From an uncultured Flavobacteriales bacterium (lineage in GTDB: Bacteria; Bacteroidota; Bacteroidia; Flavobacteriales_G; Salibacteraceae), in assembly GCA_913057875.1 (NCBI GenBank), contig CAJXPI010000004.1, forward strand, positions 1 to 37,109: a stretch of DNA of 37,109 nucleotides. Direction: 5' to 3'. Positions 1 to 25,905 of this stretch are shown piece after piece. Below the pieces are notes generated by a model. That model did not search any database, was not told where the DNA came from, and was given only the letters and a program-made list of their open reading frames with translations. The number at the start of each line of letters is the position of its first letter. Within the stretch, counting starts at the first letter, position 1. The translations under genes and the position numbers were made by a program.

Positions 1-94
1 TAACAATAAATTTAAGAGTGATTCACAACGCTTGGTGTTATAACTTTCATAGTCTTTATCAATGATTTATCGGCTTAATATTGAAAAATTAGAT

Positions 95-2130: not shown

Positions 2131-3249
2131 ATGAGTAGACCAGTTGTTAAGTTTAATACACAAGATAACCCAGAATTTTTTTCGGTATTAAGAAAACGTG
2201 TGAATCAGCACTTTAAGGATAATAACATATCCAAACATGCCAATAATGAAATGAGGTTTAAAACAGCTTTTATGCTGAGTCTATACTTTATTCCAATGGG
2301 TTTAATGTATTTTCAAGTGTTTACAGGTTCAGCTGCCATATTGGGGTTATGGGCTATCATGGGATTTGGCATGGCTGGAATTGGGTTATCTATTATGCAT
2401 GATGCCAATCATGGAGCCTACTCAAAATCGAAAAAAGTAAATCAGATTCTAGGCTTTTTAATCAATTTTTTAGGCGCTTATCACAGTAACTGGATAATTC
2501 AACATAATGTATTGCATCATTCATATACCAACATTGAAGACCATGATGAAGATATCAATAATCCTGTAATGCGATTTTCTCCTGGGCAAAAACGAAAAAA
2601 AGGGTACAAATACCAGGTGTTTTATGCTCCATTTTTATATGCCATAATGACCTTATATTGGTTTATTAGCAAAGATTTTGAGCGTGTTTTTACCTATGAT
2701 GACAAAAAACTATTGGGAACGCAAAATTTGACAAAAAATAAAGCCTTAGCCATTATTGCTGCTCACAAAATATGGTACATATTATTAACTTTAATTATTC
2801 CTATGTTAATTGTTCCAATTCCTTGGTGGCATATGGTTTTAGGTTTTTTAATGATGCACGCTATTACAGGAATTTCTTTGGCTTTAATTTTTCAACCGGC
2901 TCATGTAATTTGTGAAACCAATTTTTATGAAATTGATTCCAAAAATTCAGTGGAAAATAATTGGGCAATTCACCAACTTAATACCACCTCAAATTTTGCC
3001 AATAATGCACGTATCTTTTCTTGGTTTGTAGGTGGGTTAAACAATCAAGTGGAACATCACTTGTTTCCCAAAATTTGTCATGTACATTACCGCGATTTAT
3101 CACCGATCGTAAAAAAGACCGCGTTAGAATTTGGTATTCCTTACCATCAACACAAAACGTTTTGGGGAGCAGTTTACAGTCACTTTTCTATGCTAAATCA
3201 ATTAGGTACAGGAAGTTACGATTTAAACGCAGCTAGAAAAGCTGCCTAA
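2131..3249 (+). CDS. membrane fatty acid desaturase (acyl-lipid / acyl-CoA, delta-6-like)
   Basis: A 372-residue integral membrane di-iron desaturase. All three histidine boxes are present: HDANH (residues 90-94), HNVLHH (125-130) and QVEHH (306-310). The Q-x-x-H-H form of the third box is typical of front-end (delta-5/delta-6) and linoleoyl-CoA-type desaturases, which in Bacteroidota lack the fused cytochrome b5 domain, as here. Hydrophobic pairs flank the boxes (about 46-88, 103-122, 161-180, 212-256). It probably introduces double bonds into membrane acyl chains, possibly as cold adaptation; regiospecificity cannot be read from sequence. It stands alone, converging with the subtilase gene 9 bases downstream. 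Confidence 0.93.
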   Translation: MSRPVVKFNTQDNPEFFSVLRKRVNQHFKDNNISKHANNEMRFKTAFMLSLYFIPMGLMYFQVFTGSAAILGLWAIMGFGMAGIGLSIMHDANHGAYSKSKKVNQILGFLINFLGAYHSNWIIQHNVLHHSYTNIEDHDEDINNPVMRFSPGQKRKKGYKYQVFYAPFLYAIMTLYWFISKDFERVFTYDDKKLLGTQNLTKNKALAIIAAHKIWYILLTLIIPMLIVPIPWWHMVLGFLMMHAITGISLALIFQPAHVICETNFYEIDSKNSVENNWAIHQLNTTSNFANNARIFSWFVGGLNNQVEHHLFPKICHVHYRDLSPIVKKTALEFGIPYHQHKTFWGAVYSHFSMLNQLGTGSYDLNAARKAA

Positions 3250-3258
3250 TCGTTCAAT

Positions 3259-4935
3259 CTATTGTTTAATGATACGGTAGGTTAAAACCCCTTCAAGGGA
3301 TATTTGATTCAGGAAATATATTCCAGGATTTAAATGCGATAGATCGATTCTAGCAACTTCACTATTCATTGATTCCAGATCCATTTGCATTACCAATTTA
3401 CCAGATAAATCTGTTAAGGAAACTAATTTCACTGCTTTCTTGTCAAGTTGAAACTCAATCCAATCATTTGCCGGGTTTGGGTACACATGTAGTTCATTAG
3501 AATTATTATTTAAAGTGGTCATTCCATTAATTAAATTATAAGCCAATTCAAAGTCAGGAATACCATGTCCATAATCATCATTAGGGGCTACATACAAATG
3601 ACAACTTTGTTCAATTTTTTCTGATATTTCCATATTAGAAAAACCCGAACGAGACTGCCAGAGGCATGCCGCTGCACCTGCTAGAATAGGTCCTGAAAAA
3701 GAAGTGCCATTAATATACCTCACACTGTCTGTGCCAATAGCCATAGGTACCCAGCCTCCCATTGCCATAACATTTGGTTTCACCCTTCCATCACTGGAAG
3801 GGCCCCTAGAACTAAATGACGTTACGGTTGAATCACCCCAAACGGCTCCAATGGCCAAAACACTGTCGCCATCTGCAGGAGCTCCTATATAATACCAATC
3901 ATCATTTCCGGAATTACCCGCACTATTCACCACCAATATTCCTTTCGAAGCAGCAATATCAGCTCCCTTTGTAATTACCGTAGTATTTCCGTCCATATCC
4001 GAATAGGTATGATTTTGAGTCGAGTCATCAAATGTGGTATAACCCAAAGAAGAATTTATAATATCAGCACCTACACTATCCGCAAATTCAGCTCCCACCA
4101 CCCAATTGTATTCTTCAATAACATATTCTGTTGGAGCATCCTCCGTACGTATCAACCAGTAATTTGCATCAGGAGCAGTACCAATGTATAAACCCGCAAC
4201 ATTGGCACCCATACAATTCAAAACATAAGTCCCATGATTTGAATGCTGGTTATAATCTACGGGTTGGCCTGTCACAAAGTCCCAAGTACCTAAGATTTGA
4301 TTATTGTTAAATAAAGGTTGAATAATCGTGGTCGTATCAGCCCCAATAAAACCGGCATCTAAGACCGCAATAACCATCCCTGAACCAGTATAACCTAAAT
4401 CATGCAAGTAATTAATTTTTAGCATTTTGTTTTGTAACTCTGATAAGCCATAATCTAAACCTCGTTCAGGAAACGAGGTAGCCTGATATTTTTCCGTACG
4501 TTCCACAAGAACATCCATTTTATTCGAATGTGTCCTTTTATTACTACGCTCCACCCTTCTAGAATTTACCGAATCGACAAAAGGTAATTTCATAATTTGA
4601 TCCAAGCCCGCAGTATCGGTTGTTTCAATTAGTAATCCATTCATCCATTTAGAAGAAGTCAGCACTTGTATATTTCCAGATATTTTAACGCCTGTAACAT
4701 AAACTGGGTTAACCGGAAGATCTTGAACAGTAATAGAGATATTCTGGGCTGCTCGTCTATCAATAGCTCTCTGACTCAAAAACACATTGGGACTATCAAT
4801 AGAAAAGGGGGAGTTATTTTTATCGGTAAATTGAATCCAATATTTGTCAGGAGCAATTTGGGCGGTAATATTAGACCCCAGGATTATAAAAAAAATGACG
4901 CATAAAACATTAATTCTTCTTAAATCCCAATTCAT
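3259..4935 (-). CDS. secreted subtilisin-like serine peptidase (S8) with T9SS type A sorting domain
   Basis: The preferred start (ATG at 4935) gives 558 residues with an immediate signal peptide (MNWDLRRINVLCVIFFIILG...TAQ). An upstream in-frame ATG at 4989 would put 18 polar residues before it and lengthen the overlap with the preceding gene from 26 to 80 bases. The S8 catalytic triad is visible: Asp193 (VLDAG), His234 (NHGTY) and Ser412 (GTSFSGP), with the oxyanion Asn341 in NSAGN. Residues 26 to about 135 resemble a pro-region. The C-terminal about 75 residues (YPNPANDWIEF ... GIYFL) are a type A T9SS sorting domain, so the enzyme is likely exported and placed on the cell surface or released. 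It is last in the 8107-3259 operon. Confidence 0.93.
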   Translation of the reverse strand: MNWDLRRINVLCVIFFIILGSNITAQIAPDKYWIQFTDKNNSPFSIDSPNVFLSQRAIDRRAAQNISITVQDLPVNPVYVTGVKISGNIQVLTSSKWMNGLLIETTDTAGLDQIMKLPFVDSVNSRRVERSNKRTHSNKMDVLVERTEKYQATSFPERGLDYGLSELQNKMLKINYLHDLGYTGSGMVIAVLDAGFIGADTTTIIQPLFNNNQILGTWDFVTGQPVDYNQHSNHGTYVLNCMGANVAGLYIGTAPDANYWLIRTEDAPTEYVIEEYNWVVGAEFADSVGADIINSSLGYTTFDDSTQNHTYSDMDGNTTVITKGADIAASKGILVVNSAGNSGNDDWYYIGAPADGDSVLAIGAVWGDSTVTSFSSRGPSSDGRVKPNVMAMGGWVPMAIGTDSVRYINGTSFSGPILAGAAACLWQSRSGFSNMEISEKIEQSCHLYVAPNDDYGHGIPDFELAYNLINGMTTLNNNSNELHVYPNPANDWIEFQLDKKAVKLVSLTDLSGKLVMQMDLESMNSEVARIDLSHLNPGIYFLNQISLEGVLTYRIIKQ

Positions 4936-22159: not shown

Positions 22160-23287
22160 TTAAAACCCTCCGGTAACGGTTAAATAACCTTTTGGAGAAT
22201 ATACTTTTTGATCCTCCCCAATGGCATTAATCATGTAGTAATAGGTGCCATCCATTACTCTATTCCCCGATAAATCGTTGCCATTCCAGCCTTTATTGGG
22301 ATCGTTACTCGTATAGACTAGTTGACCATTAACAGCATATATTGAAATCGAATAAGACTGTACGCCTTGAACATTCACTATGAACTCATCGTGCTCACCA
22401 TCTCCATTTGGAGTGAAGTAATTACCTATTGTACCTATGGATGAAGATTCCGATTCTAGTTCATCCTTCAGTATCGCAGCTTCTTTAACCTCAACTACCG
22501 CTTTATCCATTACTACCGTTCCATCTTTCAATTTTGCGAGCATTGTAACAAAATAAACTCCTGGGTTTTCAAATTCATGATCAGGGTTTAACTCTGAACT
22601 TTCCGTTCCATCGTCAAATTTCCATTTTATCTCCTCTACTTCCCCTATCGAACTAAAGGAAACATTTAATGGTGCTACTCCACCGGCAGGATAAGCCTGA
22701 GCTCTTGACTGCTCCGAAATATCAATTGTAGCAGGAGCTTGACTAACTACTTCCGTTGAAATGGGATTACGTAACTGCTCATCTTCCTGTAAAACTGCAG
22801 CACTTTCACGCTCCAAAATTTTTCCTTGGGTAATCTCATTTTCCTCTATTTCAACCTTAGTAGCCTTTTCTTCTTTCTTACCTGATGACTGAGATAAATT
22901 AGAGATTTCTGACTTTTTTACAACCGCAGGTACAGAAACTGTTTCCTTGATCATCGGAGCTGTTGAAATTTCATTCACACTTTCCTCTTGTTTCGGAAAA
23001 AGTTCCTTGGTCACTAACTCTTTATTATTTACAGAAGAAACTACCTCTGTGATATTTTCCATGGGATCAGCAGTATTAAAAAGTGAAACAGCACCAATAC
23101 TTGCTACAACGGTGGCTCCCACAACTAATCCAATAACGGCTTTTGTAGAAAGCGAAGAAACACCCGTTGAAGGCGCTACATTACCTAAAGAGGACTCAAT
23201 ACCACTCCACACTTTTGGATCCACAGGGACTTCAAAAGACTCAAATCGCTCTTTAAAAAGCTCTTTTATTATATCGTTTTCTTTCAC
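22160..23287 (-). CDS. anti-sigma-like inner membrane protein with PKD and T9SS type B-like (gliding-motility) C-terminal domain
   Basis: 375 residues, starting with GTG one base after the sigma factor's stop. Residues 1-35 (EVPVDPKVWSGIESSL) are a cytoplasmic segment of the kind seen in Bacteroidota anti-sigma-like proteins. One transmembrane helix spans 50-70 with no cleavable signal peptide. A long Ser/Glu/Lys-rich extracytoplasmic linker follows (about 71-195). A PKD domain (about 197-268, WKFDDGTES, NPGVYFVTM) and a gliding motility-associated C-terminal domain (289-375, FTPNGDGEHDEF, GWNGND, DGTYYY) complete it. The last domain is otherwise the export tag of type IX cargo. Here it hangs on a membrane-anchored partner of an ECF sigma factor, so it is probably a sensor domain rather than an export tag (inference). 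Confidence 0.85.
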   Translation of the reverse strand: MKENDIIKELFKERFESFEVPVDPKVWSGIESSLGNVAPSTGVSSLSTKAVIGLVVGATVVASIGAVSLFNTADPMENITEVVSSVNNKELVTKELFPKQEESVNEISTAPMIKETVSVPAVVKKSEISNLSQSSGKKEEKATKVEIEENEITQGKILERESAAVLQEDEQLRNPISTEVVSQAPATIDISEQSRAQAYPAGGVAPLNVSFSSIGEVEEIKWKFDDGTESSELNPDHEFENPGVYFVTMLAKLKDGTVVMDKAVVEVKEAAILKDELESESSSIGTIGNYFTPNGDGEHDEFIVNVQGVQSYSISIYAVNGQLVYTSNDPNKGWNGNDLSGNRVMDGTYYYMINAIGEDQKVYSPKGYLTVTGGF

Positions 23288-23288
23288 C

Positions 23289-23828
23289 TTATGATTGTAT
23301 TTTATCTAATTCTATTAATTCTTTCTGTAGCCATAACCGCGCCTTTCTATATTGCGATTTAGATGTGTTCTCAGTAATGTCAAGTTGATCTGCAATTTCC
23401 TTGTGGCCATAACCTTCTATAGCAAACATGTTGAATACTACACGGTATCCATCAGGCAACTTTTGTATCAAATTTAGTAACTCCTTAGTTCGAATTTCCG
23501 AAAATGCACTCTCATTTTCGTGAACTTCACCCTCGGCTTTTTCCAAATCCACCCCAAACTTATATTTCTTGTTTTTACGAATGACGTCTAAACAGGTATT
23601 TGACATGGTACGATGAACCCAGCCTCCAAAGGAACCTGAACTACTATATGACTCTAACTTTTGAAAGATCTTTATGAATCCATCTTGGAGCATATCATTT
23701 GCTTCATCCCTATTCTCAGCATATCTCAAACAAACTCCCATTAAACGGGGTGAATAGGTTTCAAACAACAGCTTCTGAGCACGAGCATTTTTTTCTAAGC
23801 ACGCTTTTATTAATTCTTCCTCTGTCAT
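23289..23828 (-). CDS. ECF (sigma-70 family) RNA polymerase sigma factor
   Basis: 179 residues with sigma region 2 (EANDMLQDGFIKIF, about 37-50, and the -10-binding segment SYSSSGSFGGWVHRTMSN) and region 4 (LIQKLPDGYRVVFNMFAIEGYGHKEIADQLDITENTSKSQYRKARLWL, about 115-165) with a canonical helix-turn-helix. It directs RNA polymerase to a small regulon under an extracytoplasmic cue. The gene is coupled to the downstream membrane protein (TAAG then GTG), the standard sigma/anti-sigma arrangement. It has its own upstream -7 box (23936-23943), about 108 bases from the ATG. Confidence 0.96.
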   Translation of the reverse strand: MTEEELIKACLEKNARAQKLLFETYSPRLMGVCLRYAENRDEANDMLQDGFIKIFQKLESYSSSGSFGGWVHRTMSNTCLDVIRKNKKYKFGVDLEKAEGEVHENESAFSEIRTKELLNLIQKLPDGYRVVFNMFAIEGYGHKEIADQLDITENTSKSQYRKARLWLQKELIELDKIQS

Positions 23829-24127
23829 TCTAATTTTCAGATTCTCTAGTACGATGTAAATTCATAAATAAAGGTTGCCTCAGGAATCATTTTTTTCCGA
23901 TTTATCACAATTAGTTAAATTGAAGACTAATCATTCAAATATAAGATCTGTTATCTCAAATGCCCTGTGAAAAAACATCCCTTTTTCTATCATACAAAGC
24001 ATTAAATTTCAACCAACTATAGTAACACAAACACACCTTGACCAAATAATTAAAATAATTGTGTCATAATTGCAATGCTTGGGATGAAATTCTTTTGGGA
24101 TTTCCTACTGTAACCTAACATTGCATC
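23829..24127. other. 299-base divergent intergenic region between the sigma factor and the first tandem lipoprotein
   Basis: No open reading frame with coding character was seen. It contains a minus-strand -7 box for the sigma gene (23936-23943). Before the plus-strand lipoprotein there is TAACATTG (one mismatch to TAnnTTTG) at about 24116-24123. No terminator or RNA gene is evident. Confidence 0.6.
23936..23943 (-). promoter_or_regulatory. Bacteroidota -7 element for the ECF sigma operon
   Basis: On the minus strand this reads TATATTTG, an exact TAnnTTTG match 108 bases before the sigma factor start, implying an unusually long leader of about 100 bases. The candidate -33 TTG is only 13 bases away, so support is partial. 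Confidence 0.45.
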
Positions 24128-24943
24128 ATGAAAACTGGGGTACTATTCAAACTACTATTTCTCGCTGCAATTTCTACTTTGCTAACGTTTTCTTCATGTT
24201 CTAAAAAAGAAGAACTTGTCGCTTTTAAAGGTGCGGTCGTAAACGCGTCTAATAGGAGTGTCGCAGGAGCAAGAGTTCAAATCTTCAACTCGGCTGAAGA
24301 CTGGTTAACCGGTCATAACGTTGTGGCCACCATGACCACCGATGTATTTGGCCAATTTGAAACGCAACCTATTTACGATGCGGGTGAATATTATATTTTT
24401 ATAGAAAAGTACGATACCAGCAATTGGGAAATTAGAAAAGTGGAACAAGGTATTTACCCAAAGCTAACCATGCCTGAAGAAGCAGGAAGCACCCATATGG
24501 TGGATTATAATAATATGTCAACAATGGCTAACACTTCTTGGAAACTCACAAATATTCATCGGGAGTTTACAAAACCTGGAGCAACTGCTAAAGAATGGCA
24601 GTCGATTTGGGGCGGTGCCAATAATTGCAAAAGAGACAATGCAATTTATTTTAATAAAGACCTATCAATGCGTATTTCAGAAGGTGATTTTGTATGTTCA
24701 GGAGAAGAAAGAAATATTATCGGAACATTTATCCCGCCTTTAATTTTCAATTCGTCTAGTTGTCAAAATTTACCGTTAACCGCAATTGCGGTTAAAGAAT
24801 TTGAGTTTTCGGGTTGGCCAAAAATGGAAGCACGTAATGCAAATATGTATTTGACCTGTTCAAATTCAAATCCTGAAGTTTACGTACATTACGTAAATGA
24901 CAACAATTTGCAAGTTCTTGAAGTCTATTCCAGAACACGATAG
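24128..24943 (+). CDS. lipoprotein with carboxypeptidase-regulatory-like domain, tandem copy 1
   Basis: 271 residues. A lipoprotein signal peptide has the lipobox FSSC (Cys24). A carboxypeptidase regulatory-like beta-sandwich follows (about 30-110, FKGAVVNASNRSVAGARVQIF ... GQFETQPIYDAGEYYIFIEK). The C-terminal domain (about 130-270) carries conserved NTSWKLTN, NNCK, RISEGDFVC, SCQNL and LTC segments. The second domain is not recognised; its four conserved Cys residues suggest two disulfides. The protein is probably outer-membrane anchored. It is a tandem duplicate of the next gene, with 143 bases between them. Confidence 0.82.
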   Translation: MKTGVLFKLLFLAAISTLLTFSSCSKKEELVAFKGAVVNASNRSVAGARVQIFNSAEDWLTGHNVVATMTTDVFGQFETQPIYDAGEYYIFIEKYDTSNWEIRKVEQGIYPKLTMPEEAGSTHMVDYNNMSTMANTSWKLTNIHREFTKPGATAKEWQSIWGGANNCKRDNAIYFNKDLSMRISEGDFVCSGEERNIIGTFIPPLIFNSSSCQNLPLTAIAVKEFEFSGWPKMEARNANMYLTCSNSNPEVYVHYVNDNNLQVLEVYSRTR

Positions 24944-25086: not shown

Positions 25087-25905
25087 ATGCGAATAGCAAG
25101 AAAAACATCACTAGGTTTCTTAACCTATGCCATTGTTTTTGGATCCATTTTTATTCAAGGATGTTCAAAAACCGAGAAACACGAAGTTCAAGGTACGGTT
25201 TTAGATATAAACAAAAATCCTGTAGCCAGTGCAAAAATTGAAATATTTGAAAGTCCTGAAGATTGGCTGACAGGTCACAATGTTTTAGCTACTATGAGTT
25301 CCGATTTAATCGGTGAATTTGAAAGCCCTCAAATATTTGAAGAAGGAACTTATTATATTTTTGTTCAAAAGCATGACACCAGTAATTGGAATATAAGGGA
25401 TGTAGAAGATGGTAAATACCCTACCATAACTCTTCCAATGGAGGGCAGAACGATTCAATCTGTAGAAGCGAATAATATGGGATTGCTTGCCAATACCTCA
25501 TGGAAACTGACCAATTCCTTAGAAGAATACGAGATGTCTGGAACTAAAACCAAGCAATGGAGATCAATATGGGTAAATACCAACAATTGCAAAAAAGACA
25601 ATACGCTTCATTTTGGTAAAGATTTAAGTCTACGAATCAGTGAAGGAGATGTTATTTGTAAAGACACGGAAAGGAATCTTTTAGGTTCTTTTGTACCGCC
25701 CATGATTTTTACTAGTTACAGCTGTGAAAACCTATTGTATACCTCGCAAAAAGTTAAACCGTTTACCTTTGAGGGTTGGGAAAGCATGAAGAATAAGCAA
25801 GCTGAAATGTTTCTAGCCTGCGACCAAGGCCTAGGCCAAATGTATATCGTTTACCAGATTAATAATAACACAAAAGGCCTTATGGTCTATACAAGAAGAG
25901 AGTAG
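25087..25905 (+). CDS. lipoprotein with carboxypeptidase-regulatory-like domain, tandem copy 2
   Basis: 272 residues, lipobox IQGC (Cys26), with the same two-domain plan as 24128-24943. The shared segments include EDWLTGHNV, EYYIF/TYYIF, DTSNW, ANTSWKLTN, NNCK, RISEGD, PP(L/M)IF and SC(Q/E)NL. I estimate roughly half of positions identical, evenly along the length, so the duplication is old and both copies look intact. The function is unknown. Each copy has its own upstream gap. A terminator follows the second. Confidence 0.82.
   Translation: MRIARKTSLGFLTYAIVFGSIFIQGCSKTEKHEVQGTVLDINKNPVASAKIEIFESPEDWLTGHNVLATMSSDLIGEFESPQIFEEGTYYIFVQKHDTSNWNIRDVEDGKYPTITLPMEGRTIQSVEANNMGLLANTSWKLTNSLEEYEMSGTKTKQWRSIWVNTNNCKKDNTLHFGKDLSLRISEGDVICKDTERNLLGSFVPPMIFTSYSCENLLYTSQKVKPFTFEGWESMKNKQAEMFLACDQGLGQMYIVYQINNNTKGLMVYTRRE

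Follow-up and report, generated by a model that had tools for sequence, protein, structure and literature searches.

The window analysed here, a stretch of 37,109 nucleotides, carries on its minus strand (to which all features described below belong unless otherwise stated) a gene for an ECF sigma factor of 179 amino acids with regions 2 and 4 (23289..23828, from the ORF and HMM profile matches). One base after its stop codon comes the GTG start of a gene for a 375-residue protein (22160..23287), which we propose, on the basis of its ORF, HMM matches, orthologs and AlphaFold models, to be a transmembrane anti-sigma factor ending in a PKD domain followed by a type B C-terminal domain (CTD) of the type IX secretion system (T9SS). 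The initial annotation of this DNA had already noted the one-base gap and the GTG start, and the coding sequences bear it out. In an HMM scan the sigma factor matches Sigma70_r2 and Sigma70_r4_2 far above cut-off and TIGR02937 at 98.2 bits; it scores under the cut-offs of the NCBIfam models for Bacteroidota sigma factors. A profile search of the whole genome yields 13 sigma-70-family matches. Divergent from the sigma operon lie two tandem paralogous lipoprotein genes (24128-24943 and 25087-25905 of the window), and two further species of the genus (L002, L003) keep a lipoprotein gene at the same place beside the sigma operon.

The partner protein is divided into a short inner and a long outer part. 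Residues 1-35 (23183..23287) constitute, by homology and predicted structure, a cytoplasmic anti-sigma domain of two helices (5-16 and 24-35) with near-invariant V22 and W27. The transmembrane segment (residues 49-71; 23075..23143) is assigned by hydropathy only and oriented N-in/C-out by charge, with +1 before it and -3 after it; the top 19-residue window (51-69) has a KD value of 2.30, the next stretch 0.86. A long, unconserved, disordered periplasmic linker (residues 72-195; 22703..23074, from hydropathy, conservation and the AlphaFold model) leads to the PKD domain (residues 198-267; 22487..22696, from HMM, AlphaFold model and fold search; PKD_4 at 40.5 bits) and to the type B CTD (TIGR04131/CHU_C) with the motif FTPNGDG (residues 287-372; 22172..22429, from HMM, conservation and AlphaFold model). 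The CTD scores 59.7 bits with CHU_C, and residues 287-358 match TIGR04131 at 42.6 bits, over the curated cut-off of 35 bits, as the assignment of this C-terminus in the initial annotation would lead one to expect. The full-length AlphaFold2 (AF2) model has the same two N-terminal helices, disorder from about residue 35 to 182, and an ordered PKD domain and CTD; it draws no transmembrane helix at 49-71, where its confidence is very low. Among solved structures, Ig-like and PKD modules come closest to the folded half. There is no lipobox cysteine and, judged by hydropathy and charge, no apparent cleavable Sec signal peptide, 50 hydrophilic residues preceding the transmembrane segment. One transmembrane segment and a long tether are seen by hydropathy across 35 proteins of this kind. 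Thus, the order of parts first read from this DNA (cytoplasmic segment, one transmembrane helix, linker, PKD domain, FTPNGDG-containing CTD) stands on HMM matches, hydropathy and AlphaFold disorder, and the reading of a membrane anchor in place of a cleavable signal peptide agrees with hydropathy and charge.

A CTD above cut-off, a PKD domain typical of cargo and the company of many other tagged proteins (26 TIGR04131 matches in the genome, 25 of them besides the partner) are what one would expect of ordinary T9SS cargo with an unusual N-terminus, lying behind a sigma gene by coincidence. That explanation, which we regard as highly improbable, is opposed by the long hydrophilic stretch that stands where a signal peptide should be, by the kinship of the N-terminus with barrel-type anti-sigma factors that is described below, and by conservation of the pair. 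At all loci examined the two genes are adjacent: this holds for 34 of 34 distinct orthologous pairs and for one paralogous pair besides, with -20 to +48 bases between the genes; four further full-length matches stand outside this count. Chance adjacency is rejected on the same conservation, and ordinary cargo can be considered largely refuted. Seven further genomes, from the genus and the family, have full-length relatives, in every case following a sigma gene, and a class-wide search of 395 Bacteroidia genomes places members (full-length or locus-confirmed) in at least 34 of them (9%), in about 10 families. (A single-protein scan of genome contigs found no relative; the relatives came from the genome-collection search.) Co-occurrence of sigma genes with TM-PKD-CTD proteins, a check suggested in the initial annotation, extends over 34 orthologous pairs and about 10 families. 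Positional entropy is 1.64 for the N-terminal 31 residues, 2.92 for the linker and 2.00 for the CTD; residues 5-35 and the CTD are highly conserved, the linker not at all. In one family (L064 at 2728-3309, L065, L066 and L070) a second, diverged sigma-like gene lies behind the pair.

Comparison with known anti-sigma families, a check suggested in the initial annotation, found nothing: no zinc-finger/FecR-type or other Pfam/NCBIfam anti-sigma domain matches the partner up to E = 1. The relatives of its N-terminus are found among the other ECF partners of the same genomes. On two contigs of its own genome (C22 and C37) the sigma partners have the same N-terminal pattern, a transmembrane segment and a linker, and end in an outer-membrane barrel (OMP_b-brl_2 in these barrel-type partners). 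When about 70 ECF loci from seven genomes are surveyed, these partners separate from FecR-like and other ones: a profile of the CTD-type N-terminus run over all of the roughly 70 partners ranks CTD- or barrel-type proteins in all of the top 17 places, and hhalign of the CTD-type N-termini against those of ten barrel-type partners (taken from the genomes analysed here, and not the Dma1/Dma2 sequences) gives 97.3%. By these profile comparisons the two-helix N-terminus of the partner and that of the Dma-like beta-barrel anti-sigma factors encoded in these genomes are homologous. A second ECF sigma factor of the genome (contig C13, 4461-6205, with L048 and L037) has a paralogous CTD-tailed, anti-sigma-like partner with two PKD domains. 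The sigma tree, several of whose branches are long, requires at least three switches between barrel and CTD partners, so that the cytoplasmic anti-sigma module has apparently acquired a different outer end on more than one occasion. Elsewhere in the genome (contig C57, with L058, L250 and L251) an ECF sigma gene is followed by one for a transmembrane protein in which two FGE-sulfatase stretches are similar to GldK (172 bits against a portion of the GldK model); this protein is possibly another T9SS- or gliding-related anti-sigma factor.

Dma1 and Dma2 (Dma: dual membrane-spanning anti-sigma) of Bacteroides thetaiotaomicron are described in PMC13088901 as sigma inhibitors paired with Das1/Das2, and their architecture is outlined there as an N-terminal sigma-binding segment, a transmembrane segment, a disordered tether and an outer-membrane barrel. 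The family is the closest precedent for the window partner, which shares with it adjacency to an ECF sigma gene, a Dma-type N-terminus, a transmembrane segment, a long disordered tether and a C-terminal envelope domain. In place of the C-terminal beta-barrel, however, the window partner has its PKD domain and T9SS type B CTD. Further hallmarks of the Dma family are a cognate sigma factor of group ECF21 and a sigma regulon that is switched on when the anti-sigma gene is deleted. Since it would work like a Dma protein but lacks the barrel, we consider it a variant with a T9SS tag and not a member of the Dma family. Our literature search turned up no paper in which 'anti-sigma' occurs together with either CHU_C or the gliding-motility C-terminal domain, but the original description of Dma1 may mention CTD-tailed variants.

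How the N-terminus might meet the sigma factor was modelled on an ortholog (L072) whose genes lie in one frame, by reading through the stop codon into the partner's first 45 residues. AF2 returns this fusion with both anti-sigma helices ordered, a mean pLDDT of 83.8 and a pTM of 0.80, values that refer to an ortholog's chain and its cognate pair only, were obtained with mostly unpaired alignment rows and may owe something to a tether that itself favours contact. With these provisos the partner's N-terminus is predicted to fold together with the sigma factor, which is the outcome that the suggestion of a sigma-binding segment at residues 1-45 called for. Foldseek places the model near SigW/RsiW (rmsd 5.7-6.1 Å), CnrH/CnrY (7.4 Å) and RpoE/NepR (8.4-8.6 Å). 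In CnrH/CnrY and SigW/RsiW (PDB 4cxf and 5wuq), likewise, a short cytoplasmic anti-sigma segment lies on both sigma domains; unlike the window partner, these proteins come from other phyla and have no T9SS or PKD domain. Inhibition is read here from sequence and fold prediction, and a partner that activates the sigma factor or escorts it to the membrane would share that much. We nevertheless judge both of these roles to be very unlikely, because Dma1 and Dma2, of the same architecture, inhibit in B. thetaiotaomicron (as stated in PMC13088901) and because the modelled sigma factor fits inhibitor-bound conformations, differing by 6-9 Å from inhibitor-bound sigmas and by about 26 Å from most RNA-polymerase-bound ones.

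Upstream of the sigma genes, a search for dyads identifies the element GCAAC-N17-CATC, which is present in 24 regions, against 8 or fewer in shuffled sequences. It is found exactly before 26 of 34 ortholog sigma genes and near-exactly before seven more (one of them doubtful), and in the window (23853..23878) it ends 24 bases upstream of the sigma ATG; it is the predicted autoregulatory promoter. Most of the sites inspected in genomes G000-G002 of the genus are intragenic, and among those inspected only the sigma gene's own is convincing as a promoter. A longer form of the motif was sought in the public genome collection. Among the 80 matches listed, 12 lie before sigma genes of the clade (seven of these listed loci with a CTD-type partner), and others lie upstream of genes for secreted proteins. 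One such gene encodes type B cargo (L315; TIGR04131 at 47.3 bits) and starts 38 bases downstream of an exact sigma motif; two homologs of it, both cut off, also have the exact motif (L304 and L268), and at L284 the motif precedes a gene whose product, a PKD protein, has a sorting domain of type A. One and the same metagenome bin is the source of L268, L284 and L310. The long motif also stands upstream of DUF2807 head-GIN genes in Cytophagales-type genomes (L266, L271 and L306 and, by sequence, L269, L317 and L329), a recurrence that suggests that it may also be used by further sigma factors of the clade, and it precedes homologous genes in distant Bacteroidota (L263, with an LVIVD repeat, and L289). 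The paralogous C13 sigma factor has a promoter of its own, GCAAC-N15-CGTT, within the GCAAC-N15/16-CGTC/CGTT pattern of C13-type sigmas. We are highly confident that the locus comprises a conserved ECF sigma factor, whose upstream motif suggests autoregulation, and an anti-sigma factor that is anchored in the membrane and carries a T9SS type B tag at its outer end.

The genome does encode a T9SS (SprA at 2234.6 bits, PorV at 359.6 and GldK at 566.7). In the window's family a related element, [AG]CAAC-N15-17-CGTC, is found upstream of 11 cargo genes with a type B CTD out of 34-36. Of the 17 type B cargo genes of the genome itself, 5 have the N16/17 form upstream, against 0 in a set of 98 other upstream regions (p = 4e-5, an optimistic value since the pattern was picked after viewing those regions); the N15-17 form, tested afterwards in other genera of the family, precedes 6 of 19, against a shuffle mean of 0.03. 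Outside the family it precedes 2 of 56 and enrichment is weak or absent. No such element was seen before porV or gldK, and the sprA start coincides with a contig end. The initial annotation suggested looking for the sigma factor's motif before T9SS genes; an element of its class stands before type B cargo genes within the family, and none was seen at porV or gldK. The -10 sequence of the cargo element is CGTC, as against CATC in the window sigma's own promoter; CGTC is also the -10 of the promoters of three orthologs (L078, L105 and L107), and it resembles that of C13-type sigma promoters. The C13 paralog or another ECF sigma factor may accordingly be what reads it, to go by the sequence of the elements.

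Is the tag a tag? A genuine anti-sigma factor could have borrowed the CTD fold for a plain periplasmic Ig-like sensor of the state of the outer membrane, peptidoglycan or polysaccharide that never engages the T9SS. There is also a likeness between CTD folds and Ig domains of the FlgD type, some relatives (L156 and L195, for example) have weak or shortened CTDs, and the sigma motif was not found upstream of the CTD cargo genes sampled in other families. On the other hand, P293, D296, W334, G336 and Y349 of the CTD are almost unchanged in about 10 families, its TIGR04131 score is above cut-off, and the family's cargo genes carry a promoter of the same class. We consider a borrowed fold unlikely, although it is the rival to be taken most seriously.

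Two other systems connect ECF sigma factors with the T9SS. In Porphyromonas gingivalis, PorA (PGN_0123), which is located at the surface and is made with a signal sequence, acts upstream of PorXY-SigP (PMC7712824). Like the window partner it is a CTD-bearing protein upstream of an ECF sigma factor that controls T9SS genes (PMC7712824), but it has a signal sequence and no anti-sigma domain and acts via PorY and PorX. PorA had initially been cited as a type B CTD precedent, which is incorrect: the sole type B CTD protein of P. gingivalis is named as PGN_1317 (PMC7712824). In Flavobacterium psychrophilum, gldN, porU and an ECF sigma/anti-sigma pair of the SM6 regulon are preceded by ECF-type promoters whose -10 box is CGT (PMC9723704). 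The promoters are of a similar kind and stand before T9SS genes, but these are genes of the machinery rather than of cargo, and the anti-sigma factor is described without mention of a CTD (PMC9723704).

We think it rather probable that the window partner is an inner-membrane anti-sigma factor built like Dma, with a T9SS tag in place of the barrel, and that the tag engages the T9SS and frees the sigma factor as traffic changes. Its first ~35 residues would hold the ECF sigma factor at the inner membrane by their two helices, while the transmembrane segment and a disordered tether of ~125 residues would carry the PKD domain and type B CTD into the periplasm. There the CTD would most probably engage the outer-membrane machinery (PorV, translocon or attachment complex), directly or in competition with cargo. 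A change of T9SS traffic would alter the tension on the tether, or its proteolysis, and so release the sigma factor, T9SS engagement, the direction of the signal and the manner of release all being inferred. The freed sigma factor would transcribe its own operon and, in the family, some of the type B cargo genes would be expressed from promoters of this class. That sigma-binding part, anchor and T9SS CTD share one chain, as had been surmised at the outset, accords with the homology to Dma-like factors and with the predicted co-fold. What is sensed is probably T9SS cargo traffic. More tentatively, and with doubts of our own, we entertain a closed loop contained in one operon: a cargo-tagged, anchored anti-sigma factor, pulled on or loaded by the T9SS machinery, would read cargo flux, the freed sigma factor would transcribe cargo genes from GCAAC/C[AG]TC promoters, and barrel and T9SS tag would be interchangeable outer ends.

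Little has been established about the way in which Bacteroidota keep the synthesis of T9SS cargo in step with their capacity to export it, PorA/SigP covering one genus. A widespread anti-sigma factor ending in a cargo tag, together with promoters of the sigma factor's class before cargo genes, offers a concrete and testable sensor, by which a cell could set its production of secreted proteins according to how busy its secretion machine is.
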